Assembly (NCBI GenBank): GCA_015068325.1
Contig: SVKQ01000014.1
Coordinates: 1-41,216, forward strand
Direction: 5' to 3'
DNA length: 41,216 nt
Source of the DNA: Oscillospiraceae bacterium
GTDB taxonomy: Bacteria > Bacillota > Clostridia > Oscillospirales > Oscillospiraceae
Part shown: positions 27,773 through 41,130 of the stretch, piece after piece
Layout of the letters: each line of letters starts with the position of its first letter
Numbering within the stretch: the first letter of the stretch is position 1
Notes under the pieces: model-generated
What the model was told of the DNA's origin: nothing
Databases searched by the model: none
Seen by the model: only the letters and a program-made list of their open reading frames with translations
Translations under genes and position numbers: made by a program

Positions 27773-29530
27773 GTGCTTCTTTTGGGATATCTGCTGGGTT
27801 TTGCCACCGTGGCGGTGTTGGTCAGAAAGCGCGGCGACAATATGCGCAGCCTGGTGCTGGTGGGCTACAACTACATCTTTGCCACCGCCATGCTGACAGC
27901 GGCCCAATTGGCCGGGGAGCCCATTACCTGGCAATCCGTAGCGGCGGCATTGATCCGCGGCATGTATGATTCCCCTACCGCCATGACTTTCCAGGGCAGC
28001 ATAGGCGATGCTGTCAACCTGCAGGAGATGGTGATTTTCTGCGCCATGTCCATCTATACGCTGCGGGCGGCGGTGGTACTGTTTTTCCGTAAGGCGTGGA
28101 ACTACCTGAGAATGTGCTGGCGCCTGTGGAGTGCAAAGAAAATCTATGTGGTCTGGGGTGAAAAAGATGCTGCCGCTGCTTTGCTTCGGGATATCCACAA
28201 TCACGTGAAGCGAGCTGCCGCTGTGTGGATCCCCTTTTCCGGCAAAGCCACAACGGAGTTGCCAGCTTTCCCGGCAACGGCAGAATTTTTGCAAAGGCCC
28301 AAGCTCGGCCGGATCTGCCATATTATACTTCTGCCGGATGAAAAGCAGGGGAATCTGGAGCGGGTGAAAAAACTGGACGCTTTGGGTGAGAATGCGGCAG
28401 ATTACCATGTGACTGCTTTTCTGAATGATGATTTGCTGCGGCTGCAGGACCTCCATTTTCCCCATCTGGATGTCTGCCCGGTGTCCCAGCAGGAATTGCT
28501 GATGCGCCAATTTATCCGGGACCACAGACCACTGCAGCAGTTGAGTGCCCGAAGCCGCACCTTTGAAAAGAGCGGGATTCTGGTGCCGGAACGGCCGTTT
28601 TCCCTTTGCCTGGCCGGCTTGAGCAGACTCAACCGTGCCCTGCTTCTATCTATATGGGAAAACACCGCGTTTGAAACAGCGGCTCCGGATGGTCGTGGAT
28701 TTGACGCTGTGGTGTTGGGCGCGGATCCCTCAGAAAGGGAGTTGTTTTTCCGGGATTATCCGGCCTTTCGCGACAGCGGATCTTTGACCTGGCAGGAGGG
28801 AGACGGGGCTCTGGCCCTATATGCCTTGGCCGAAGATAAGGCCTGCTTATTTGATGAGATCGCAATTGACATAGGGACCACCTCCCGGAATGTGGAAGCT
28901 GCCCTTCGTGTACTGCGGCTGTTGCGTAGAAGGGGCGTTGAAGAAGATCGCCTGCCATTGATAGCGGTTGTGATCCATGAGATGTATGAAGGGAGCACGT
29001 CTCTGCTGGCAGAGGAACCACAGGTTTGTTTCCTGCAGGAAAACAGCAGCATACTGACCTATGCGGATCTGGTGGAGCGAGCTTTTGACCGGGAGGCCGA
29101 GAATCTGCACCGGCGATACCGGGGAACCGGGATGATCTCCGCCGGCTGGCGGAACCTGGGTACCTTTACCCAAAGCTCCAACCGGGCTGCGGTATGGGAT
29201 ATCCCAAACAAGCTGCTGCTTGGCCGGGATGCGGCCGAATTGCCTGCGGATAAACGCAATAAAGCGCTGTGGCGGCTGGCGGAGTACGAGCACAGACGAT
29301 GGGTGGCGTTCCATGCGGCCCACGGATGGTCCTTGCTGCCGGTATCGGAGCTGACAGAACAGGAGCGGGAGGACTGTGCCACCAAGCGTCCTGCGGAAAG
29401 GCGACACACCTGCATGGTGGACTGGCAGAGCCTGGACAGCCTGCCCCAGCATGAGCCGGGACTGCTGAAGAAGTACGATTACATGAATGTGGAGGAGCTC
29501 TTTGGGACAGAGGAGGGTGACCATGCCTGA
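27773..29530 (+). CDS. Membrane TrkA-N-like / RyR-domain protein, module 1 partner of TIR-STAND
   Basis: The 585-residue protein has three predicted transmembrane helices (about 2-17, 27-47, 84-106). A short loop between the second and third (ALIRGMYDSPTAM...) resembles the pore-loop place of channel-like proteins but lacks a potassium filter. Two Rossmann-like units follow, KKIYVVWGEKDAAAALLRD (122-140) and FSLCLAGLSRLNRALL (276-291), as in TrkA-N/RCK proteins. The C-terminal 80 residues (AEYEHRRW ... GWS ... RRHTCMVDW ... YDYMN) match the RyR (ryanodine receptor) domain pattern H..W...GW...HPCLVP....YD. A GTG start follows GGGAGG by 7 nt. Its stop overlaps the next start by 8 bp (ATGCCTGA), so it is translationally coupled to the TIR protein. 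Inferred role: membrane effector or channel-like sensor gated by a nucleotide. The RyR call is by pattern and moderately sure; the TrkA-N call is weaker. Confidence 0.7.
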   Translation: MLLLGYLLGFATVAVLVRKRGDNMRSLVLVGYNYIFATAMLTAAQLAGEPITWQSVAAALIRGMYDSPTAMTFQGSIGDAVNLQEMVIFCAMSIYTLRAAVVLFFRKAWNYLRMCWRLWSAKKIYVVWGEKDAAAALLRDIHNHVKRAAAVWIPFSGKATTELPAFPATAEFLQRPKLGRICHIILLPDEKQGNLERVKKLDALGENAADYHVTAFLNDDLLRLQDLHFPHLDVCPVSQQELLMRQFIRDHRPLQQLSARSRTFEKSGILVPERPFSLCLAGLSRLNRALLLSIWENTAFETAAPDGRGFDAVVLGADPSERELFFRDYPAFRDSGSLTWQEGDGALALYALAEDKACLFDEIAIDIGTTSRNVEAALRVLRLLRRRGVEEDRLPLIAVVIHEMYEGSTSLLAEEPQVCFLQENSSILTYADLVERAFDREAENLHRRYRGTGMISAGWRNLGTFTQSSNRAAVWDIPNKLLLGRDAAELPADKRNKALWRLAEYEHRRWVAFHAAHGWSLLPVSELTEQEREDCATKRPAERRHTCMVDWQSLDSLPQHEPGLLKKYDYMNVEELFGTEEGDHA

Positions 29531-31913
29531 AGAAAGACGCGATGTATTTGTCAGCTACCATACCAGCAGTGCCGCCCAGACGGTTCAGAAAGTAGTTCCG
29601 GCCCTGGAAGCGGCAGGGGTAACATGTTGGTACGCACCACGGGACTGCGATGAGCAATTTGCCGGCTCCATCGTAGGGGCGATTCGTCGGTGCAGGATTT
29701 TTCTGCTGCTGCTCAACGAGCAGTCTAACGTCTCGGCCCATGTGCTCAATGAAATCAACTGCGCCTTTGAACGCTTTAAAAACCACGAGGACATTGCGCT
29801 TTTGCCTTTCCGACTGGACAATTGTGCCCTTTCGGACGATGTGTATTACTATTTGGGCCGAATCCACATGATGGACGGCGCCCTTCCTCCGGAGGAGCTG
29901 CGCCTGCGAGAGTTGGTAGACCGAGTCACCGCCTTGCTGGGCCGGCAGCCGGTGAAGATGACGGCAGTTGCTCCGTCAGCCTCTGCCGGGGCAGCTGTCC
30001 CGGCCACCGACTATGCCTTGACAGGCACGCTGGTATATCCGGACAACCACTTCACCGGCCGGGAGAGAGAACTGGCAGCCATCGATGCGGGACTCCATGG
30101 CGTGGAAAACGTGCTGTTTTTGGTGGGTATGGGTGGCATCGGCAAAAGCGAGATCGCCAAAACGTACGTAAAGCGCCGTGCGCAAGACTATGATGTGGTG
30201 CTGTGGGTCAATTTCAATGATTCGTTGGAACAAACGGTAGCCAGTGATGCAGCCTTCCCCATCCGGGGCATGCAGCGCAGCGATTTCCCGGAGGACGACA
30301 CCCGCACCTACTTCGCCCGCAAGCTGCGGGCCCTCAAGGAGCTTGCCGACCGGCGGGTGCTGATCGTCATAGACAACTTCGATGTGGAGGATGATCCGGA
30401 TCTGAATGATTTTTGCGGCGGTGCATACGCCGTACTGTTTACCACGCGCTGTCACCAATTGGGCGGTAATCTGCCGGAGGTAGAAGTGGGTCCCATGACG
30501 GATCCAGCTGAGTTGATGGAACTGTTCCGCTCTGAATATACCCGCATGATGGATGAAGCAGGCCGGAAAGCGGCAGAGGAGATCATCACGCTGCTGGATG
30601 GCCACACGCTGACCATCCGCCTGGTGGCTTCTGCCATGCAGAGCCGGCGCATTCCGCCGGAAAAGATGCTTTCTCTGCTGCGGCAGGGATATGCAGGACT
30701 GACCCGCGAGAATGCCAAGGCATCGGATCTGATCTTTGGCCGGCTACAGCAGGTTTTTGCGCTGTCTACGCTGACGGAAGAGGAATTGTTCCTGCTGAAA
30801 AATCTGTCCCTGATCCCCCTGAGCGGCATTGCCGTGGAGACACTGTTTGATTGGTGCCAGCTGGATGATTACGATCTCATTGATGGCCTGATCCGGCGCA
30901 GTTGGGTCGTCCATGACCCGGTTACAGACTACGTCCATCTCCACCCGCTGCTCTGTGATTTGATGGCGGAAGAGTTGGAAAAGGATCCCGGCTGCTGTGA
31001 GACAATGCTTCGCAGTATGGTCAGGGCGCTGGAGAATACGTTCCGGCACAAATATGCTGAGAAACAACAAAAGTTGGCTCTGACCACCGCCGTTTGCCAG
31101 CGGCTGCCTCAGAATCATCCGCTGCGTCCCTTGATGATGCTGACGCGGGCTGATGCACTGATGGGACTCTCCATGCGCACCGCGTCCATCCCGCTCTATC
31201 AGGAGTTGTGGGACGGCGGCTGCAAGGGACTGGAACCCATTGTCGTCTGTGGAAAGTTGGCCCATGCCCAAATCCTCAGCGGCGATCCGGAAAGCGGCTA
31301 CCGCACAGCTATGGCCGGCTGGGAGATGACAAAGGATATTCCGGTGTCGGCGCTCTCTCCGGAGCAGGGCTACTGGCGCAGCCAGGTGCTGAGCCGGCTG
31401 ACGGAGTCCACCCGGGATATGGGGGACTATGAGAGTTCTATCGCCTACGGGAAACTGGGACTGGAGCAAAGCCGATATTTTTACACCACCACACCCCAGG
31501 AGGCGCGGGGCTGGAAGCTGTGGCATCTGGCGAAAACCCTCTTCCTCATGGGCGATCTGGCGGAGAGCGAGCGTTTGTTGCTGGAAGCCAAGGAACTGTT
31601 TACCGAGATTCAGGATGACTGGTCCCGCAGCTTCAGTTTGGAACTGTTGGGTCAGGTGATGATGAGGAAGGGCCAATTTGACTTGGCACTGGACTACTCC
31701 CGGCAGTCGTTTGATCTCCTGCTGCCTCTGCTGGGTGAGGAACACATGGACGTCGCCCATAATCTGGGCTGGCGGGGTGAGATCTACACAGCTATGGGTG
31801 AGCACGCTCAGGCCGCTGTTTGTTATCGGCGGGCCATTGAGATCTACCGCAAGCGCAGCTGCCCCAAACGAGCCGAGGAAATCGAAAAGCTACTGATGGC
31901 CCAGGAGAGCTGA
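29523..31913 (+). CDS. TIR-NB-ARC-TPR protein 1 (STAND NTPase, NLR-like)
   Basis: The 796-residue protein has an N-terminal TIR domain (7-140) with DVFVSYHTSS, CWYAPRD and putative NADase Glu77 in HVLNEINCAF. The NB-ARC-type STAND ATPase (about 175-500) has P-loop GMGGIGKSE (202-210), Walker B RVLIVIDNFD, sensor LFTTRC, and the winged-helix LHPLL motif in the MHD position. C-terminal TPR-like repeats (about 600-790) would serve as sensor. This is the layout of plant and bacterial NLR immune proteins: the repeats detect a trigger, the STAND module oligomerises with ATP, and the TIR domains cleave NAD+. The start is fixed by GAGGAGGGTGACC and the 8-bp overlap with the RyR-domain gene. Likely an antiphage effector; the trigger is unknown. 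Confidence 0.9.
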   Translation: MPEERRDVFVSYHTSSAAQTVQKVVPALEAAGVTCWYAPRDCDEQFAGSIVGAIRRCRIFLLLLNEQSNVSAHVLNEINCAFERFKNHEDIALLPFRLDNCALSDDVYYYLGRIHMMDGALPPEELRLRELVDRVTALLGRQPVKMTAVAPSASAGAAVPATDYALTGTLVYPDNHFTGRERELAAIDAGLHGVENVLFLVGMGGIGKSEIAKTYVKRRAQDYDVVLWVNFNDSLEQTVASDAAFPIRGMQRSDFPEDDTRTYFARKLRALKELADRRVLIVIDNFDVEDDPDLNDFCGGAYAVLFTTRCHQLGGNLPEVEVGPMTDPAELMELFRSEYTRMMDEAGRKAAEEIITLLDGHTLTIRLVASAMQSRRIPPEKMLSLLRQGYAGLTRENAKASDLIFGRLQQVFALSTLTEEELFLLKNLSLIPLSGIAVETLFDWCQLDDYDLIDGLIRRSWVVHDPVTDYVHLHPLLCDLMAEELEKDPGCCETMLRSMVRALENTFRHKYAEKQQKLALTTAVCQRLPQNHPLRPLMMLTRADALMGLSMRTASIPLYQELWDGGCKGLEPIVVCGKLAHAQILSGDPESGYRTAMAGWEMTKDIPVSALSPEQGYWRSQVLSRLTESTRDMGDYESSIAYGKLGLEQSRYFYTTTPQEARGWKLWHLAKTLFLMGDLAESERLLLEAKELFTEIQDDWSRSFSLELLGQVMMRKGQFDLALDYSRQSFDLLLPLLGEEHMDVAHNLGWRGEIYTAMGEHAQAAVCYRRAIEIYRKRSCPKRAEEIEKLLMAQES

Positions 31914-31926
31914 CGGCTGTGAAGCT

Positions 31927-31955
31927 CTGAAATAAGCGACGGAACATGGTATAAA
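31927..31955 (+). promoter_or_regulatory. Possible promoter of the TIR/RyR locus, module 2
   Basis: CTGAAA (31927-31932) and TATAAA (31950-31955) are 17 bp apart in the 82-bp gap before the HD-RyR gene. If active, the second module can be expressed apart from the first. Confidence 0.4.
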
Positions 31956-31995
31956 TTGCAATAGAACAGATCTTAAGTTTTCGAGGAGGCGCCCC

Positions 31996-33723
31996 ATGAG
32001 CAACTGTTCACCGTTCGTTGACCAATTCTTTCAGAACTTGACGCTTCAGGAGAACGCTGTGCGCAGTCAGTATTGCAAGGGTTATATTCATCAGGCCATC
32101 CGTTCATTCTTGGAAAACGAGAATCCGGATACTGCCTTTTCCGTCTATCGCGCTTTCTTTGACTGCTACCGTTTGACCCTGCCGGGCCGGGATGACCCCT
32201 TTATGGATCTTGTGGATATGCTGCGCACCTATGAGGAGACGGCTGCTTCCCTGATCGAGAAACAGCGGGATCATTTTATCCACTCGGTAAACGTGTTCAT
32301 CTGCGGCCTGTCGATATGGGCGGAGAACAACCGTTTTCGTCAGGCGTTCAGCGGTGCGGTACCCGAGAACGGATATACGCAGAGCTTCCCCACAAAGGAG
32401 GAGGAATTCTTTTTCCGCTGGGGCATCGCCGCGCTCTTCCATGACATGGGATATCCGGTAGAGATCATCGGTAGTCAGATCAACCGATTTATCCGCATGA
32501 TCAGCGACGCAGATGGCGATGAGGTCCGGGTTCGAGCGCAGATCCACTATGAGAATTTCAACGAGCTGAATCATATCCAGGAGATTCTGCCGTTCGATGA
32601 GTATTCCCGTGACTTCCGCGCGGCATACGGTGACTCCGAAAAAACGAATCTCTTCGCGCCGCTGGATCTGCTGGCTCACCGCATTCACTTGGCATTCGAC
32701 ACCGGTTATGACCGAACAAAAGCAGCTCTGGATGGTTTTGTGGACAACATGGCCGCCAGTGGTTTCATTGATCACGGCTATTACAGCGCTCTAATCGTGC
32801 TGAAATGGTATGGCTGTGCCCTTCAGCGGGCAGGGATCACGCCTCAGCGTTTCTTCTGGCCGGTGCTGGACAGCGCAGCCGCTATCCTGCTGCACAACTA
32901 TTTCCGCACCAATCTGCAAAAGCCCCCATTTGCTCTCGGCCCTATGCCTGTGGAGAGGGATCCACTGGCCTATCTGCTGATTCTGTGTGATGAGTTACAG
33001 GAGTGGAACCGGGAGGGGCGTGGAATCATCAGCCGCCGGGCCGCCAAAGCGGATACGGTACACCTGAGTATCCGCGACGATTATATGTCCGCCGTCTATG
33101 TGACCCACCACGGCCGGCTGGCAGACGACTTCTGTAGCAGGAAAGAAACCATACTGCACCAGGTGCTCTCCCTGGAGGATCTTTTCCCTGCCGGATTCAA
33201 CGTTGACGCTACGGCGCTGGACGATATCGCGTTTCTTAAGCCCCGGCTGGAAGCCATCGCGCCACGTCCTCTGCTAAAGCACATTGAGCTGCTGGCTATC
33301 GCCATTCACGCACGCTATAACGAGAAGCGTCTGGAAGAGCATCCGGAGCTTCCTCTGGCATATCCTGACTTTTCTGCGCTGCCGGATGACCTGAAGTACA
33401 GCAATCTCAGACAGGCCCAGAGCATTGTGGAACAGCTGGAAGCCGCCGGGTACGCGCTGGGGCCCAAGGGACAGGCGGGTGCCGTGACGGAATTCCCCAT
33501 ACGGATGCTGGAGCAGATGGCGGAACTGGAACATGAAGCCTGGGTGCAGGAGCGCATTGCCTCTGGCTGGACGCTGGGAGAAAAGGACACGGCCCGAAAA
33601 ACGACCCCCTATCTGGTACCCTATGCAAACCTATCCGAGGAAATCAAGGACTATGACCGGGATGCCATACGCTACATTCCGACTCTTGCAGAGACCGTCG
33701 GCATGGCGGTCTATGAAGTCTGA
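31996..33723 (+). CDS. HD-domain protein with C-terminal RyR domain, module 2 partner of TIR-STAND
   Basis: The 575-residue protein has an HD-type metal phosphohydrolase region: His96 in DHFIHSVNVF, the His149-Asp150 pair in ALFHDMGYP, His260 in FIDHGYY and a late Asp332 in LILCDELQEW, matching the H...HD...H...D order of the superfamily. The C-terminus (about 505-560) is a clear RyR domain: AELEHEAWVQERIASGWTLG, then KTTPYLVPYANLSEE and DYDRDAIR. No membrane helix. GAGGAGGCGCCCC precedes the ATG. It lies between the two TIR-STAND genes, with 58 bp to the second. HD domains hydrolyse phosphoesters in (cyclic) nucleotides; inferred role is to sense a TIR-made nucleotide through RyR and either degrade it or attack nucleotides. 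Substrate unproven. Confidence 0.85.
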   Translation: MSNCSPFVDQFFQNLTLQENAVRSQYCKGYIHQAIRSFLENENPDTAFSVYRAFFDCYRLTLPGRDDPFMDLVDMLRTYEETAASLIEKQRDHFIHSVNVFICGLSIWAENNRFRQAFSGAVPENGYTQSFPTKEEEFFFRWGIAALFHDMGYPVEIIGSQINRFIRMISDADGDEVRVRAQIHYENFNELNHIQEILPFDEYSRDFRAAYGDSEKTNLFAPLDLLAHRIHLAFDTGYDRTKAALDGFVDNMAASGFIDHGYYSALIVLKWYGCALQRAGITPQRFFWPVLDSAAAILLHNYFRTNLQKPPFALGPMPVERDPLAYLLILCDELQEWNREGRGIISRRAAKADTVHLSIRDDYMSAVYVTHHGRLADDFCSRKETILHQVLSLEDLFPAGFNVDATALDDIAFLKPRLEAIAPRPLLKHIELLAIAIHARYNEKRLEEHPELPLAYPDFSALPDDLKYSNLRQAQSIVEQLEAAGYALGPKGQAGAVTEFPIRMLEQMAELEHEAWVQERIASGWTLGEKDTARKTTPYLVPYANLSEEIKDYDRDAIRYIPTLAETVGMAVYEV

Positions 33724-33781
33724 GGGATCGTGGGCCTGATCGGCATGGCCATTGAAAAAGTTAAAAAGAGGGATCGACAGC

Positions 33782-36139
33782 ATGGAACACTTGATTTTTA
33801 TTTCACACTCAAGCAAAGACGCGCCCTTGGCGCAGTTGATCTGTCATCGGCTGGAGGAGGCCGGCATCCGTTGCTGGATCGCTCCTCGGGATATCCAGCA
33901 TGGAGATTGGGCCGGGTCAATCATGGACGGCCTTTCCCGTGCAGACGTGTGTGTGATTATCGTGGGGGAGCACGCGGTGGATTCACCGGAGGTCCTCAAG
34001 GAGGTTACCGAGGCCACGCGCAGCTGTCAGTATATCATTCCCTTTAAGGTGGACAGCGCTGACCTGTCGCTGAAAATGCAATATCATCTGGGGCCCTGTC
34101 ACTGGCTGGACGCCTCCACGCCACCTATAGAGCAGCGAATCGAAGAGCTTCTGCATCGGATCGGGCATCTGTCCGAGGAGGATGTGGTCTATCAGAACAC
34201 GCGGAAACTGCGGCTGAACGAGCACATGGTCTGGCCCCGGCCAAACTTCCTGGGGCGCAAGAGTGAACTGGAAGAGATTGCAGAGCGGCTGCCCCGGGAG
34301 GGTACCCTGTTCCTTCGCGGCATGGGCGGCATTGGCAAGTCTGAGATTGCCAAGTCCTACGCGGCGTCGTATCACGACCGGTATGACACTGTCCTGTTTC
34401 TGGGATATGAGGGGAGTATCCTCGACCTTGTCAGCGGAGACAGCATCCGGATCGAGAATCTGCCGCCTCGGGATCCGGACAGCGAAAACGCAGAGCAGTA
34501 TTTTGCCCGCAAGATGGAAGCGCTCCGCAGGATCGTATCGGCGCGTACACTGCTCATTCTGGACAACTATGACGTGGATGATGATCCCTGTTTTGCGGAA
34601 CTGGCCAATACAGAGGCCCATCTGCTGGTGACGACCCGGAATGAGCATGAGGATTACCCTGTGATGACCGTTGGCCCCATCGCCGATTTCGATACCGTGC
34701 GGACCCTGTTCATCTCCTCCTGGGGAAAGACGCCGAAGCCGGAGGAACTGCCGGTCATCGATGAGATTATCCGTATGGTGGGCAGCCACACCATTACAGT
34801 GGAGCTCATTGCCAGACAGATGAAGGCCAGCCGCCGTACGCCGGCGCAGATGCGTGAGCTTCTGCAGGCCGAGGGCCTGCACACAAAGCTGAAGGAGAAA
34901 ATCAAGCGGGAGGGCGGTGCGTCCCAGGGATCAGCCTATGATTATATCGCGCGGCTGTTTGTCTTTTCCCATCTCTCATATGAGTGCGAGCAGATCCTGC
35001 GCTGGATGGCCATGGTGCCGTATACCGGCATCGACATTGGGCTGTTCTATGATATCTGCCAATTGGAGTCTTATGATGAGATCAACGAGTTGATTGCCCA
35101 CAGCTGGCTGCAGTTGGATGAGGAGACGGACATCCTGAGTATGCACCCGGTGATCGGAGACGTGGTACGCGAGCAGCTGCATCCCACAGTAGAGACCGGA
35201 AAGACCTACATTGCTGGACTCTGGCGGGAAGTCGGAAGCCTGTGGATGAAGAGCATGGAGGAAAGGGCAAAACTTTGGCCCTATTACGCCAAGCTCATCC
35301 GAGATTACTACGATCCAATTCCTGAGCTTTGGACCGAATTCAGCTATTTGGAAAACAATGCCTGGATCTGCGCCAGATACGCTCTTGCTGTCGAAATCGG
35401 TCAGCGCTTCCTGGCGTACACCAAAGAGAACTTTCCCCAGGACTATGAGAAAATCGGGATCGCGGCAAACTATCTCGGCGCTTGCTATCACAACGGTGGG
35501 GACGATTTCCACGCGGCGCCCTATTATGAGGAGGGACTGGAATATCAGAAAAAGGCCATCAACGAAGACAGCGGATTTGCCCAGTGGGATCAGCTTTCCA
35601 GCGCCTACCAAAAGGTTGGACGCTGTGCGTATCTGGCGGCAGACTATGAAAAGGCGAAGGCCTGCTTTGAGGAATCCATTCGAATAAGCAGTGAAAAATG
35701 CGAAAAAAAGGGATACTATTGCAACGCCTTTCTGGAGATGGCCAATATGTATCTGAGAATGGAGGATTATGAAAACGCGCTGCGGTTTGCGGAAGAGAGC
35801 CGGAGACTCTATGATGCCAGATTCGGACCGGACAATCCAAACAGCGCCTGCTCCCTGACGAATATCGGAAAGTGCCGGATGCACACAGGAGACTATAATG
35901 GCGCAAGGGTGGCGCTGGAGGAGTCCCTGCGGCTCAATATCCGCTTCAACGGCAAAGAAAACCGGCAGACGTTCTGGGCCAAGGAAGCTCTGGGCGATCT
36001 GACGCTATTGGAAGGGAAGCCGGACGAGGCCTCTCGGATTTTTGGAGAGTTGGAAGTTGAGATGGAGCAGTCCTTCGGAGAGCAGAACCCGGACCTGCTG
36101 GCGCTGCGCGAGAAACTGCGCCGCGTCGGGGGCCAGTGA
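33782..36139 (+). CDS. TIR-NB-ARC-TPR protein 2 (STAND NTPase, NLR-like)
   Basis: The 785-residue protein is a diverged paralogue of the protein encoded at 29523. TIR domain (1-125): IFISHSSKDA, CWIAPRDI, and putative catalytic Glu74 in VLKEVTEA. NB-ARC (about 155-460): P-loop GMGGIGKSE (180-188), Walker B TLLILDNYD, sensor LLVTTRN, MHP in the MHD position. TPR array (about 540-780), more regular than in protein 1, with units such as AADYEKAKACFEESI and EDYENALRFAEESRRLYDARFG. The ATG at 33782 follows AAGAGGG by 9 nt; an upstream in-frame TTG has no good site. The shared sequence around YFARKMEAL and D.YDVDDDP shows common descent with protein 1, while the TPR part differs, suggesting a different trigger. 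The transcript probably ends at 36281-36318. Confidence 0.9.
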   Translation: MEHLIFISHSSKDAPLAQLICHRLEEAGIRCWIAPRDIQHGDWAGSIMDGLSRADVCVIIVGEHAVDSPEVLKEVTEATRSCQYIIPFKVDSADLSLKMQYHLGPCHWLDASTPPIEQRIEELLHRIGHLSEEDVVYQNTRKLRLNEHMVWPRPNFLGRKSELEEIAERLPREGTLFLRGMGGIGKSEIAKSYAASYHDRYDTVLFLGYEGSILDLVSGDSIRIENLPPRDPDSENAEQYFARKMEALRRIVSARTLLILDNYDVDDDPCFAELANTEAHLLVTTRNEHEDYPVMTVGPIADFDTVRTLFISSWGKTPKPEELPVIDEIIRMVGSHTITVELIARQMKASRRTPAQMRELLQAEGLHTKLKEKIKREGGASQGSAYDYIARLFVFSHLSYECEQILRWMAMVPYTGIDIGLFYDICQLESYDEINELIAHSWLQLDEETDILSMHPVIGDVVREQLHPTVETGKTYIAGLWREVGSLWMKSMEERAKLWPYYAKLIRDYYDPIPELWTEFSYLENNAWICARYALAVEIGQRFLAYTKENFPQDYEKIGIAANYLGACYHNGGDDFHAAPYYEEGLEYQKKAINEDSGFAQWDQLSSAYQKVGRCAYLAADYEKAKACFEESIRISSEKCEKKGYYCNAFLEMANMYLRMEDYENALRFAEESRRLYDARFGPDNPNSACSLTNIGKCRMHTGDYNGARVALEESLRLNIRFNGKENRQTFWAKEALGDLTLLEGKPDEASRIFGELEVEMEQSFGEQNPDLLALREKLRRVGGQ

Positions 36140-36280: not shown

Positions 36281-36318
36281 ACGAAACATGGCGTTCATCA
36301 ACGCCATGTTTCGTTTTT
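36281..36318 (+). terminator. Terminator of the TIR/RyR locus
   Basis: A perfect 15-bp stem (36281-36295 with 36300-36314) around CATC is followed by TTTT, 142 bp past the last stop codon. Confidence 0.85.
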
Positions 36319-36578: not shown

Positions 36579-36634
36579 GGGACGGAGGTTCAGGTCCTCT
36601 CAAACCGAAAAAGTATCTTTTTTTCACTCAAAAA

Positions 36635-36930
36635 GCGCACGGGTTTCTCCTAAAAAAGTACAAGGAGAAACAATATGAAAAGCTCTATTGCGGAGCTGTA
36701 TTACGGCAATATCTACCCGCAGAACAGCGGATTCGAGGATGACGAGAGCGTGCAGCATGAGCTGTGAACGATCAGCGAGAACGAGGATTGGCTGACCGGG
36801 CATCTCGCCGGCGAGGAGAAGAAGCGCTTCCTGGATTTCGCCGACGCCTGGTCCACCTACAACGGCGCCGCCACTCTGGACGGCTTCATCACCGGCTTCC
36901 GGTTGGGAGCGCGGTTTGTGCTGGATACTT
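36635..36930 (+). repeat. Left copy of the DUF6809 direct repeat
   Basis: About 300 bp from the AAAGCGCACGGG leader through most of the broken gene matches the stretch at 40790-41085 in the same orientation, with many third-position changes. The pair flanks the AAA/HTH operon. Confidence 0.7.
36643..36671 (+). promoter_or_regulatory. Leader hairpin that can hide the ribosome site, copy 1
   Basis: GTTTCTCC (36643-36650) is the exact complement of GGAGAAAC (36664-36671), which holds the ribosome-binding GGAG of the following gene. The leader is conserved in copy 2 at 40800-40827. Confidence 0.5.
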
Positions 36931-36980
36931 TCGTGTTGCCGGAAGCTTCGCCGCAGAACTATTTGCAAGACAAAGAATAA
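36675..36980 (+). pseudogene. DUF6809-type gene broken by an in-frame TGA
   Basis: Reading from the ATG at 36675 gives the same protein as the intact gene at 40831 (MKSSIAELYYGNIYPQNSGF start, then EDDESVQHEL), but codon 31 is TGA (36765-36767) where the intact copy has CGG (Arg). The frame then stays open for 70 more codons with clear similarity (TISENEDWLTGHLAGEEKKR, GFITGFRLGARF) to a TAA at 36978-36980. There is no frameshift, so the decay looks recent. The leader and ribosome site are intact, so a 30-residue peptide could still be made. DUF6809 is a small clostridial family of unknown function. The family name is from pattern recognition. Confidence 0.8.
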
Positions 36981-37057: not shown

Positions 37058-38584
37058 TTACCAGTATTTCTTTTCTGGGGTCTTACGCTTTGCGTCCGCT
37101 TCGTGGTCACGCACACCGAAGTATGGATCCTTCGTGCAGACCGTCGGGTCATACCAGTCGGCTTTGGCGCTGGCCCATGCAATCCACTCTGCGCTTTTGG
37201 TTCCGGCTTTCCTGGCGGCTTCTATATAAGCTCTGATCTTGCAGGCAATGGCATAATCCTCCGCAGCATTCACAAGCCCCTCGGTGGCATCTATTTCCTT
37301 ATTGCGGCGTTCTCTTACTTCCGCAGCCTTCTGACGGGCCTCTTCGTCTTTGCGCTGCTTCTCTTCGTTCTCCAGACGAATCAGTCGATTGGCGTAAGAG
37401 GCCTCGTAAAACGCCACCATGATCTCTCCGATGCGATCCTCAAGCACATAGGACGTGCAGTCCGTGAACTTGCATTTTCCATCGACAACCAGTGTAAGCT
37501 TGCCATTCCAAGGACGATCCCATTTGGGAATATTGGGCTTCAATGCCCAAGTGTTCTTTCGCTTTGCCTCTTCGTATTTCAACTGCTCCAGCTTCTCGGC
37601 CCGGGTGATTTCATGAGGAATTTGATCCCTCGATTCCGATACCGTGAAAGGAACATCTTCCCCGTTTACCTGAAAGTGAAATTGGTATGTTACAGAAGCG
37701 CCAAACGGCATCATCCCCTTTAGGAGTGCGTCCAAAATATGAAAAGCTCTGGCATAGGAATCCTTGGAAATGCTGTCTGCCAACAGAGGGGCTTCCTCTG
37801 CATATCGGCCATATCTCATTTGATTGTCCTTTTGCCTATCCAGCCAGCTCTCACATTTTTCCTTTTGCTTTGCTATGTCCTTATGCAGCTTTGCACCGGG
37901 ACCGGCAACCCGCAACTTGGATGCGGCATCTAATACCTTTGCACGATCAGCCTCCTTGAGGAATGAAAGTGCAGTTTGTGCAATGTGCAGCGTCCGGCGG
38001 TCGCCGGTTTTGGGTTTGTCCTCGTTGGGTGGCAGCTTTAGCTTGGGCAAATCGGGCTTGGGAACGAGTTTTCCCGCACGTACCTTTGCCCAATAACCGG
38101 CCTGGGGGAACGGCACGTCCAGTTTTCGGCAGATTTTCCGAAGGCCGGTGTCGCTTATTCCGTACCGCTTACAAACATCCGTCATAGGGGCTTCCCAAAC
38201 CTCCCGATATAGCGTTTCCCGCTTATATCGTGGAGTTTCCCCTTCGCGGGGGATGACCAATCCAATCTTACCTTCTTCTGATACCGGTTTACTTTCTGCA
38301 GCAATTACTTCTGCGGTATCCTTGGGTTTTCTCTTTTCCGGAAATAGCAGAATGGTATCCTTTTCAGAGGCTGGCAGCGGAGTCCTTTCCACCGGCTTGT
38401 GAAACTCCAGTTTTGTCCAGTACCCGGATGGAGGAATCGGTATTTTGTTATCCTTACAAATCTTCAGAAATTGAGAATAACTGATCTCATACTTCTTTGC
38501 GATCCTTGCCGCAGAATCTGTCCAAACTTCCTCATATATCGTTTGTCGACTGACGGTTTTTTCATTCTTATCCGTATGCTCCAC
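37058..38584 (-). CDS. Tandem helix-turn-helix protein of unknown function
   Basis: The 508-residue protein opens with two copies of a helix-turn-helix-like unit (about 12-59 and 120-169). Both follow the pattern R.T.Y.EVW....T..... YGIS...L.KIC....VP.P..GYW.K. The central part is charged and helical, with a beta segment (VTYQFHFQVNGEDVPF, KLTLVVDGKCKF) and a coiled coil (about 400-430, KQRKDEEARQKAAE...). Proteins with this repeated GYW unit are widespread in accessory DNA but I know of no proven function. DNA binding is the simplest inference. The GTG start (38582-38584) overlaps a GGAGG site, so GAGAGGG 10 nt upstream may be the true ribosome site. Last gene of the operon, 31 bp after the small HTH gene. 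Confidence 0.75.
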   Translation of the reverse strand: MEHTDKNEKTVSRQTIYEEVWTDSAARIAKKYEISYSQFLKICKDNKIPIPPSGYWTKLEFHKPVERTPLPASEKDTILLFPEKRKPKDTAEVIAAESKPVSEEGKIGLVIPREGETPRYKRETLYREVWEAPMTDVCKRYGISDTGLRKICRKLDVPFPQAGYWAKVRAGKLVPKPDLPKLKLPPNEDKPKTGDRRTLHIAQTALSFLKEADRAKVLDAASKLRVAGPGAKLHKDIAKQKEKCESWLDRQKDNQMRYGRYAEEAPLLADSISKDSYARAFHILDALLKGMMPFGASVTYQFHFQVNGEDVPFTVSESRDQIPHEITRAEKLEQLKYEEAKRKNTWALKPNIPKWDRPWNGKLTLVVDGKCKFTDCTSYVLEDRIGEIMVAFYEASYANRLIRLENEEKQRKDEEARQKAAEVRERRNKEIDATEGLVNAAEDYAIACKIRAYIEAARKAGTKSAEWIAWASAKADWYDPTVCTKDPYFGVRDHEADAKRKTPEKKYW

Positions 38585-39023: not shown

Positions 39024-40472
39024 TTACTCAATTCCCTTATAACCGTTTTTCTCTGCGTATCCAAGCAGATATAAGAAAGCAAAAGCGGGTATCCGAATCA
39101 TATCTTTTCCAGATTTAGTATTTTGAATACCGAAATCTGTAGCACCCTTCGTCACCACGATGGCCGCGGAGGCTTCTCCGCAAAGCTCAGAGATTGCATC
39201 ATCGTCGGCTATAGGCGCGCCCTCCCGATATTTCACTTCAATGAGGATATTGTTCGTATTGGGATAATCAACGACAACGTCTATTTCCTTACCACGCTTA
39301 CCTCCGCGGAAGTACCCCACAGAGGTCGCCTGCTGATAATAAAACGCAGCGACATGCTTATAAACTGCCGTTTCAACGACCTTCCCCATTTGCACAGGGT
39401 CGGTCAACATAGAATCATCCATCAAAACTGCATTGCGGATTGCAGCATCAGCAATGTAGATTTTCGGGCTGGCCTTCAGAACCTTTTTGCCGGCCATGTT
39501 GATCGGCCAGCTTTGATAGATAAGATTTGTACTCTCCAAGTATTGAATATAGTTCTCGACAGTAGGGCGGGATACTCCGCTGAGTTCTTTTGCTATGGCC
39601 TCTATGGATACAATCTCTGAAGAAATGTTACAGAGATAAAGGAATATCCGCTCTAATTCTGTAGAATTTCGAATGTTATATAGCGATGGCAGATCTCGCT
39701 TCAACACCTTGTCTACAACATCTTCCCTCATGATCTGCTGGGCTAAAATGTCATTGTCAGCCAAAGCAAGCTCTGGGAATCCGCCGACCTGCAAGTAGCG
39801 TGTAAAGTGATTCTGCACTTTTGTCAACTGCATCATGATTTGGGTGCGTTCTTGCTGGTTCATGTGTAGCAGCCGCGTAACCTTCAAATTCTTCGGAAGG
39901 GCAGGGCGGTCCAGATTCAGCAATTCGCAGTATTCGAAGAAGGACATGGTTGGAACCTGTATGACAGACCAACGCCCGGCGCCACTCTCTTGATTGCCCT
40001 TCATCAAGGCTGGACTTGCAGAACCGGTCGCAATCACCTGGGAATCCGGCTGCATATCGTAAATTGTCTTCAACCATTTATCCCAATCCTGTGCATACTG
40101 AATCTCATCAAAGAAGTAATACACATCCTGCTCAGCATATACATTTTCATGATAGCATTCCAGGATTGTATTAAAATCGCTAAGCTTCAGCATGGGATGA
40201 TCCATAGAAATGAATACTATCTTCTGGGGAGCAACGCCCCTTGCAAGGAGTGCTTCGATCATCTGATACTGAATCGTGGTTTTCCCAACGCGTCTTGTTC
40301 CGGTCAGAACAATAGTGCGGCGAATACCGACTTGGTCCATTCGCTTCATCGCTTCATGGAAGGCAAAGCGTTTATATGATTTAGATAGTTTGGGATTTAC
40401 CAGTCCGGTTTTCCACCAGGGGTTATATGCGCTAAGCACTTTAAGGATGCTCTCCTTCGTTGTAATTGCCAT
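39024..40472 (-). CDS. AAA ATPase with C-terminal DUF4143 (AAA_14-DUF4143 family)
   Basis: The 482-residue protein has an N-terminal P-loop ATPase with Walker A GTRRVGKTT (58-66), Walker B VYYFFDEIQ (117-125) and sensor VIATGSASPAL. A winged-helix segment follows (SGVSRPTVENYIQYLE). The C-terminal DUF4143 region has a PD-(D/E)xK-like core, GKEIDVVVDY then ILIEVKYRE. This family is very common in bacterial and archaeal accessory DNA, with poorly known function; nucleic-acid cleavage or remodelling is proposed from the fold. The third nearby ATG (40470-40472) is used because GGGAGA at 40481-40486 is well spaced to it. First gene of a three-gene operon with its own strong promoter. Confidence 0.9.
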   Translation of the reverse strand: MAITTKESILKVLSAYNPWWKTGLVNPKLSKSYKRFAFHEAMKRMDQVGIRRTIVLTGTRRVGKTTIQYQMIEALLARGVAPQKIVFISMDHPMLKLSDFNTILECYHENVYAEQDVYYFFDEIQYAQDWDKWLKTIYDMQPDSQVIATGSASPALMKGNQESGAGRWSVIQVPTMSFFEYCELLNLDRPALPKNLKVTRLLHMNQQERTQIMMQLTKVQNHFTRYLQVGGFPELALADNDILAQQIMREDVVDKVLKRDLPSLYNIRNSTELERIFLYLCNISSEIVSIEAIAKELSGVSRPTVENYIQYLESTNLIYQSWPINMAGKKVLKASPKIYIADAAIRNAVLMDDSMLTDPVQMGKVVETAVYKHVAAFYYQQATSVGYFRGGKRGKEIDVVVDYPNTNNILIEVKYREGAPIADDDAISELCGEASAAIVVTKGATDFGIQNTKSGKDMIRIPAFAFLYLLGYAEKNGYKGIE

Positions 40473-40491
40473 TTTCATCATCTCCCATGCA

Positions 40492-40520
40492 ATGATACCA
40501 TAATTGGAAGAACACGTCAA
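40492..40520 (-). promoter_or_regulatory. Predicted promoter of the AAA-DUF4143 operon
   Basis: On the minus strand, TTGACG (40515-40520) and TATCAT (40492-40497) are 17 bp apart. The expected start of transcription is only some 15 bp before the ribosome site. Confidence 0.75.
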
Positions 40521-40530
40521 CAATTATTTA

Positions 40531-40710: not shown

Positions 40711-40789
40711 CCAATCTGGGCAGAGTGTGAATAACGCACTTGAGCAAGCACATTTCAAAAACGTTGCAAAACCCATGTTTTCAGGCAGA

Positions 40790-41085
40790 AAGCGCACGGG
40801 CTTCTCCTAAAAAAATGAAGGAGAAACGATATGAAAAGCTTTATTGAGGAGCTGTATTACGGCAACATTGACCCGCAGAACAGCGGCTTCGAGGATGACG
40901 AGAGCGTGCAGCATGAGCTGCGGACGATCAGCGAGAACGAGGACTGGCTGACTGAGGATCTCTCCGGCGAGGAGAAAAAACGCTTCCTGGACTTTGCCGA
41001 TGCCTGGTCCGCCTATAACGGCGACGCCACCCTGGACGGGTTCACCACCGGCTTCCGTCTGGGTGCAAGGTTTGAGATGGACACC
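40790..41085 (+). repeat. Right copy of the DUF6809 direct repeat
   Basis: The partner of 36635-36930. Leader, ribosome site and coding sequence are all shared, so the duplication covered a gene with its control region. Confidence 0.7.
40800..40827 (+). promoter_or_regulatory. Leader hairpin that can hide the ribosome site, copy 2
   Basis: GCTTCTCC (40800-40807) pairs with GGAGAAAC (40820-40827) with one mismatch. The stem covers the ribosome site of the intact DUF6809-type gene and keeps the core TTCTCC/GGAGAA seen in copy 1. Confidence 0.5.
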
Positions 41086-41130
41086 TTTCTGAGCGACAAA
41101 GCGTCGTTTGAGCGCTTCTTGGAAAACTAA
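40831..41130 (+). CDS. DUF6809-type small protein
   Basis: The 99-residue acidic protein (starts MKSFIEELYYGNIDPQN) fits the pattern of DUF6809, a small family common in gut Clostridia: ELYYGNI, then E....L...L...E......F...W......D.F..GFRLGARF. No catalytic motif, signal peptide or membrane helix. Probably an all-helical soluble protein; function unknown. GGAG at 40820-40823 precedes the ATG by 7 nt, within a possible hairpin. A broken copy lies at 36675. Its own strong terminator follows. Confidence 0.8.
   Translation: MKSFIEELYYGNIDPQNSGFEDDESVQHELRTISENEDWLTEDLSGEEKKRFLDFADAWSAYNGDATLDGFTTGFRLGARFEMDTFLSDKASFERFLEN

Follow-up and report, generated by a model that had tools for sequence, protein, structure and literature searches.

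The operon analyzed here, a four-gene locus of an Oscillospiraceae bacterium, is best read, with a probability of about one half, as a Thoeris-like antiviral system that signals through nicotinamide adenine dinucleotide (NAD), in which ryanodine receptor (RyR) domains receive a messenger and activate a membrane effector and an HD-domain effector. The locus lies at positions 27773-36139 of the window, i.e., the complete 41,216-nucleotide stretch of contig SVKQ01000014.1 (GenBank assembly GCA_015068325.1). Related pairings of TIR or DUF4062 genes with RyR genes recur in other bacteria and archaea.

The locus consists of four plus-strand open reading frames (ORFs), encoding the membrane-RyR protein P0001 (27773..29530, 585 amino acids), the TIR-NB-ARC-TPR STAND protein P0002 (29523..31913; 808 amino acids from an upstream in-frame ATG at 29487), the HD-RyR protein P0003 (31996..33723, 575 amino acids), and a second TIR-NB-ARC-TPR STAND protein, P0004 (33782..36139; 795 amino acids from an alternative TTG start at 33752). 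Counted from internal ATGs, P0001 and P0002 overlap by 8 bp, and the gaps that follow measure 82 bp and 58 bp. An intrinsic terminator hairpin followed by TTTTT is located at 36281..36314 on the plus strand (−23 kcal/mol, z −7.3); it is absent from the list of a consensus terminator scanner. The ORF coordinates and the hairpin energy bear out the preliminary description, made from the sequence alone, of four closely spaced same-strand genes ending in one terminator, and the TIR, NB-ARC, and TPR calls it made for both STAND proteins agree with Pfam, the NB-ARC match of P0004 being sub-threshold with a P-loop.

P0002 matches TIR_2 (4.9e-13), NB-ARC (5.3e-12), and TPR_12. Its TIR domain spans 29544..29879 on the plus strand (PF13676 in a search of its own genome, E 3.0e-14), the P-loop is found at residue 214, and a Glu lies within a VLNEI motif at residues 86-90. 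P0004 matches TIR_2 (7.1e-20) and TPR_12, with the TIR domain at 33794..34153 on the plus strand (PF13676, E 4.5e-21) and a Glu within a VLKEV motif at residues 81-85; its NB-ARC match falls below threshold (3.8e-4), but a GMGGIGKS P-loop is present at residue 190. The two proteins share 31% identity over 518 aligned columns (blastp E 5e-72). Both motif Glu residues line up with the Glu of relatives, and we take them to be the catalytic TIR residue. Avs-type STAND proteins and plant TIR-NLRs combine an effector domain, an NB-ARC-type ATPase, and a repeat sensor; the same layout of N-terminal effector, STAND ATPase, and repeat sensor is found in P0002, and in P0004 with NB-ARC under the cut-off, the difference being that the window proteins have separate RyR-domain partners. 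A third TIR_2 gene occurs elsewhere in the same genome (G000:C11:120732-121145).

P0003 is probably composed of a phosphodiesterase (PDE)-like HD domain and a RyR Repeat12-like domain. The RyR domain at residues 503-560 is recognized by Pfam (7.6e-16; 58.6 bits against the PF02026 cut-off of 27.4), and its core maps to 33502..33675 on the plus strand (54.7 bits in the own-genome search). The HD assignment (residues 3-448; 32002..33339, plus strand) is suggested by the modelled fold, by conserved metal-ligand-type residues (H93, H96, H149, D150, H260, H300, and D332), and by weak Pfam matches in the family. The model, with a predicted local distance difference test (pLDDT) score of 84, matches a PDE-like HD fold and a RyR Repeat12 module, and the H...HD...D metal site characteristic of the HD phosphohydrolase/phosphodiesterase superfamily is present on this fold. 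Pfam HD matches are weak and confined to five of the 28 aligned HD-RyR family members (best E 0.011), P0003 itself having none; the 95 HD proteins of the conservation check include some near-duplicates, e.g., the same contigs met twice. The HD-RyR call of the preliminary description is therefore confirmed by Pfam in its RyR half and carried by fold and residue conservation in its HD half.

P0001 has predicted N-terminal transmembrane helices and no Pfam match, the PF02026 cut-off included. Its RyR-like domain (residues 496-569; 29258..29479, plus strand) was detected with E 7.5e-7 by a custom profile built from 180 other RyR stretches, from which P0001 and its closest relative had been left out. 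In profile comparison, an 11-sequence P0001 family profile matched the RyR region of HD-RyR proteins with 98.2% probability and a K+-channel-RyR pair with 99.8% over 484 columns; the RyR match drops to 63.9% when the profile holds P0001 and its closest relative alone. A RyR fold had been proposed at the C-terminus of both partners: Pfam supports it in P0003, and in P0001 it is indicated solely by the custom profile and the profile comparison. Among 16 aligned P0001 relatives, Pfam found RyR in 10, TrkA_N in three, and Ion_trans_2 in two, with none in P0001. Alignment to these relatives suggests Rossmann-like (TrkA-N/RCK-like) regions and a channel-like architecture in P0001. A K+ channel was also considered and was rejected for the window protein, which has no TVGYG selectivity filter such as that of loci L122 and L123 (L numbers are our locus handles).

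Passages of a May 2026 preprint (PMC13232231) report that phage RyR domains bind or cleave TIR-made 2'/3' cyclic ADP-ribose (cADPR) and that one of these proteins, RyDEP, is a glycosidase that cleaves the TIR-made cADPR signals with a catalytic His/Asp pair; eight other homologues were selected for testing, six bound signals, and the homologues tested showed no cleavage. The RyR domains of the window resemble RyDEP in the PF02026 domain and the ligand residues H, W, and D of P0003, and in H, W, H, and a likely D of P0001. In P0003, H513 and D554, which match the His/Asp pair, are invariant in 28/28 HD-RyR proteins. In P0001, H507, W510, H545, and D569 stand at the likely places of RyDEP H75, W78, H100, and D117; E506, H507, and W510 are invariant in all 16 aligned relatives, H545 is kept in 14 of the 15 with a residue there, and the D place aligns poorly (D in 6/16 rows). 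Unlike RyDEP, the window proteins are cellular, their RyR domain is joined to an HD domain or a membrane portion, and their genes share a locus with those of the presumed signal maker; P0003 has T at the H100 equivalent. Cellular HD-RyR or membrane-RyR operons are not described in the passages of the preprint used here.

The association of HD-RyR genes with NAD-cleaving enzymes (NADases) was assessed in a genome scan that yielded 76 HD-RyR loci besides the window (77 in total), several of them on short contigs. Neighbouring genes were called by longest-ORF rules, and some of those listed are antisense artefacts. Custom profiles placed TIR or DUF4062 genes no more than three genes from HD-RyR at 37 of the 77 loci (the window counted among them) and in 12 of the 16 sequence clusters at 60% identity. 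Such genes made up 45/380 of those within three positions versus 1/325 of those five or more away (Fisher p 7e-12, the loci not being independent). Because the TIR and DUF4062 profiles had been partly seeded from HD-RyR neighbours, a Pfam-only check was made separately on random samples of 110/235 near and 110/263 far genes of 120-1300 amino acids; TIR_2 was found in 14/110 near genes versus 0 or 1/110 far genes, as read from the first 25 of the 140 far families. These counts, together with the phage RyR proteins reported in the cited passages (PMC13232231), support the earlier proposal that RyR domains in such operons handle a TIR-derived signal.

The sensor genes next to HD-RyR are varied: they encode TIR-LRR (L031, with TIR genes at the same place in L032 and L034), TIR-Big_6 (L024), and DUF4062-NACHT proteins with WD40 or TPR repeats (L022, L023, L029). 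In two loci of the window's own family, L162 and L163, HD-RyR overlaps the TIR gene by 1 and 4 bp, respectively. Rumen clostridia show a recurrent order of TIR, large protein, HD-RyR, and membrane protein (L002, L003, L007, L008, L033); the large protein carries LRR in L002 and L007, and the membrane protein of L007 exceeds the DUF4231 cut-off, with SLATT and SLOG-type matches below threshold. In the archaeal Methanobrevibacter locus L057, custom profiles place TIR-TIR-HD-RyR-RyR in one frame, which appears to be a fusion of TIR to HD-RyR. On the HD-RyR tree the NADase partner label changes at least five times, and at least three of these changes are forced by well-supported branches. The tree was built by a quick method from 68 of the 77 rows (nine short or fragmentary ones dropped), and some long branches meet; labels were assigned by hand (27 TIR, 8 DUF4062, and 33 unlabelled), with L038, which has both, counted as TIR, and with L020 and L028 unlabelled although each shows a NADase gene nearby. 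Since the partner label changes on the tree, we take the element common to HD-RyR systems to be the chemical output of the NADase rather than protein contact.

Two further features of these neighbourhoods were observed. A divergent second TIR-like gene stands directly before the canonical TIR gene upstream of HD-RyR in L002, L003, L004, L007, L008, L009, and L033, and the alignment lacks the usual catalytic-Glu motif in these divergent genes. HD-RyR-RyR genes occur as tandem pairs in Methanobrevibacter loci such as L044, L045, L046, and L066.

Membrane RyR proteins recur near HD-RyR and TIR genes. In L028, HD-RyR is followed after an 18-bp gap by a transmembrane-TrkA_N-RyR protein, with a TIR gene divergent upstream; a similar membrane RyR protein follows HD-RyR in L030, and L070 combines HD-RyR and TIR with a membrane RyR protein whose SLOG-type match is below threshold. 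L122, from the window's own family, carries two consecutive TIR genes together with genes for two RyR proteins, one of three helices and one with a KcsA-like pore. The pore protein (L122:9441-11033, minus strand) has a KcsA-like match of E 2.6e-15, a TTVGYGD filter, and a C-terminal RyR domain, and the TIR gene scanned contains propeller-type repeats. A RyR pair of this kind is also present in L123, where a TIR gene follows three genes further on. A cassette of a membrane RyR protein, a RyR protein of about 95 amino acids, and TIR is found in L120, L182, L186, and L187. RyR is also part of an L164 protein with an AAA region, beside two TIR genes, and of very large proteins with sub-threshold Card1-like endonuclease matches (L178:4780-8859 and L181:4154-8677). 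The large proteins of L178 and L181 each adjoin a 93-amino-acid RyR gene, with a TIR gene nearby, and L178 adds a protein kinase domain.

In the mechanism that we propose, P0002 and P0004 would act as NLR-like sensors whose TPR regions read a trigger, probably a phage component. The trigger would cause NB-ARC oligomerisation and thereby activate the putative TIR NADases, which would turn NAD+ into an ADP-ribose-type messenger, possibly an isomer of cADPR or a related molecule. This messenger would be received by the RyR domains of P0001 and P0003: its binding may open or activate P0001, leading to membrane damage or ion leak, and may switch on the HD domain of P0003, leading to hydrolysis of nucleotides or nucleic acids, so that the two would together stop the growth of the infected cell. 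An effector role of HD-RyR is favoured by loci whose listed neighbourhood holds solely a NADase gene and HD-RyR (L023, L024, L029, L031, L032, L034, L035, L060). More tentatively, and at somewhat less than even odds, we hypothesize that in bacteria as in archaea RyR serves as a modular, general receptor for immune messengers made from NAD, and in this resembles SLOG, macro, SAVED, and CARF. It would operate together with TIR or DUF4062 NADase sensors, and the parts coupled to it would be HD/PDE enzymes, K+ channels, membrane proteins of Rossmann type, AAA ATPases, and nuclease-like proteins. In that case the window operon would represent a version with two sensors and two effectors, and prokaryotic signalling of this type would be the prototype of the cADPR-RyR axis of animals.

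Several observations weigh against the messenger-receptor interpretation of the operon. At 40 of the 77 HD-RyR loci, some on short contigs, no NADase gene was seen within three genes, and in the two big Methanobrevibacter clusters a NADase neighbour is present in 1/14 and 1/9 loci; in L066 the genes beside HD-RyR encode instead a fusion of protein kinase and HSP70, a calcineurin-type phosphoesterase, and an FHA protein. With the profiles used, no RyR gene was detected next to the P0004 relatives L158, L159, and L160, which come from other genomes. In 26/28 HD-RyR proteins, T or S occupies the phosphate site that is H100 in RyDEP, for which reason their ligand may differ from that of RyDEP. The K+ filter of L122 is missing from P0001, and there is no TIR gene on the contig piece with L119, the sole full-length relative of P0001 found (45%). 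The Rossmann and channel-like assignments of P0001 are based on sequence; a structure model from a three-row alignment reached a pLDDT of 35 and was left unused.

The order of RyR-membrane, TIR, HD-RyR, and TIR genes likewise belongs to the window alone, with 0/76 occurrences among the other HD-RyR loci over the stretches covered. The preliminary description had given every STAND protein a RyR partner of its own. As a general rule this two-module pairing was rejected, because TIR and DUF4062 replace each other as partners among the relatives, in which a single NADase sensor gene is often found; one TIR or DUF4062 gene with one HD-RyR gene is a common arrangement. The expected adjacency of RyR and TIR genes stands for HD-RyR and is weak for RyR genes at large. 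In a PF02026 survey of the class (27/391 genomes with a match; 28 of the 29 non-window regions covered, the 3.7-kb contig G270 left out), TIR or DUF4062 lies within three genes in 9/28 regions, or in 9/159 near versus 2/132 far genes (one-sided p 0.059). Together with a group of short membrane RyR proteins of 457-499 amino acids without a TIR neighbour (L132, L133, L135, L136, L189, L190, L193), this survey weakens the use of RyR genes as a simple mark of TIR operons.

The main rival, which we consider rather unlikely, casts HD-RyR as an off-switch: P0001 would read the TIR messenger and P0003 would destroy it, through a RyDEP-like glycosidase RyR or the PDE-like HD, limiting self-harm. This explanation fits much of the same data, and sequence could not separate it from the effector role. 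The HD fold of P0003 is PDE-like, and PDE catalytic domains hydrolyse cyclic nucleotides; the small RyR protein of the membrane RyR-TIR cassette stands where an off-switch would be expected; and the L057 fusion would also suit a synthase-hydrolase pair. RyDEP itself is a RyR glycosidase in the cited passages (PMC13232231), and its His/Asp pair has the invariant counterpart noted above, but the other homologues tested there did not cleave signals, and HD-RyR proteins do not conserve the phosphate site of H100. At the eight loci with solely a NADase gene and HD-RyR, moreover, an off-switch would leave the system no effector beyond the NADase.

It is improbable, in our estimate, that the TIR-STAND proteins stop infection by NAD+ depletion, with RyR proteins that recycle or buffer ADP-ribose (ADPR) or tune the system and read no messenger. 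HD-RyR is common to TIR and DUF4062 systems, and DUF4062 partners are reported, in the portion of a preprint considered (PMC13174449), to yield ADPR and nicotinamide from NAD+; however, membrane proteins with receptor-type domains recur in such operons, which suits messenger signalling; simple NAD+ depletion would not require that a membrane partner be conserved. We give still less credence to a stress or developmental signalling unit, not immune, into which P0001 was drawn as an unrelated neighbour. It would accord with the lack of a TIR gene beside L119, with weak PADLOC matches, and with the regulatory role that STAND-TPR proteins also have (AfsR and FxSxx models are among the sub-threshold NCBIfam matches), whereas the 8-bp overlap of P0001 with P0002, the patchy presence of the locus, with no other same-genus genome matching P0003 or P0004, and the NADase sensors found linked to HD-RyR in both bacteria and archaea argue for an immune operon with P0001 as a member.

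Among known systems, Thoeris is the closest in plan. Type I combines the TIR protein ThsB with a SIR2-SLOG ThsA, and type II combines TIR with a transmembrane-macro ThsA. In the window, as in these, a TIR protein is accompanied by an effector whose receptor domain is of a nucleotide-binding kind, and there is a membrane effector as in the transmembrane-macro type (PMC11204291); TIR proteins carrying the presumed catalytic Glu are represented by P0002 and P0004. It differs in that the receptor is RyR instead of SLOG or macro, HD replaces SIR2, the TIR proteins are large STAND-TPR sensors, and there are two TIR and two RyR genes. Pfam SIR2, SLOG, and macro have no match in P0001 or P0003, and PADLOC returned no ThsA match, a weak ThsB match (E 0.009), and no Avs model. 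The DUF4062 preprint (PMC13174449) describes DUF4062 as a TIR-like NADase that hydrolyses NAD+ to ADPR and nicotinamide, and the term RyR occurs 0 times in its main text. The likeness to this Swarozyc/DUF4062 group lies in NADase-STAND sensors and in P0003 relatives that adjoin DUF4062-NACHT genes; the window TIR is canonical by comparison, and its four proteins have no DUF4062 match. As for animal ryanodine receptors, P0001 is far smaller and has no recognisable K+ filter, and the comparison is confined to the RyR domain.

The operon is sparsely distributed. Among 199 related genomes, its own included, P0003 has 15 matches, P0004 seven (E 1e-20 or better), and P0001 seven; other genomes of its genus are absent from the P0003 and P0004 matches, and a weak match to P0001 occurs in one of them (G007). 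No relatives turned up on viral contigs, for which A1, P0001, and the channel protein of L122 served as queries. Searches of plasmids and phages with P0003 returned one plasmid and two phage records, all distant; the plasmid record has no TIR gene among its four annotated features and one SIR2-family gene. The GC content of the four operon genes is 55-57%, versus 63% in window positions 1-25000, and because of this lower GC and the few genomes matching P0001, P0003, or P0004, the locus suits a horizontally acquired island. Downstream, a DUF6809 gene region is present in two copies (window 36621-36931 and 40778-41087; 87% identity over about 310 bp) on the two sides of a 4-kb stretch; the reading frame is open in the copy at 40831-41130 and interrupted in the one near 36676 (two stop codons in the stretch tried, one perhaps the natural end). 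Between them lie a 508-amino-acid protein with an RWP-RK match slightly under the cut-off (37058-38584) and an AAA_14-DUF4143 ATPase (39024-40523), both with a GC content of 45-50%, well under that of the upstream chromosome.

If the proposed interpretation is true, bacteria and archaea would read TIR-made NAD messengers via a domain found in animal ryanodine receptors, the calcium channels of muscle, which would help to explain the phage RyR-domain proteins directed against Thoeris. The binding of cADPR-type messengers by RyR Repeat12 would become testable in small soluble proteins, and the L122 K+ channel with its RyR tail, encoded in a TIR operon, would be a simple candidate for a messenger-gated channel.

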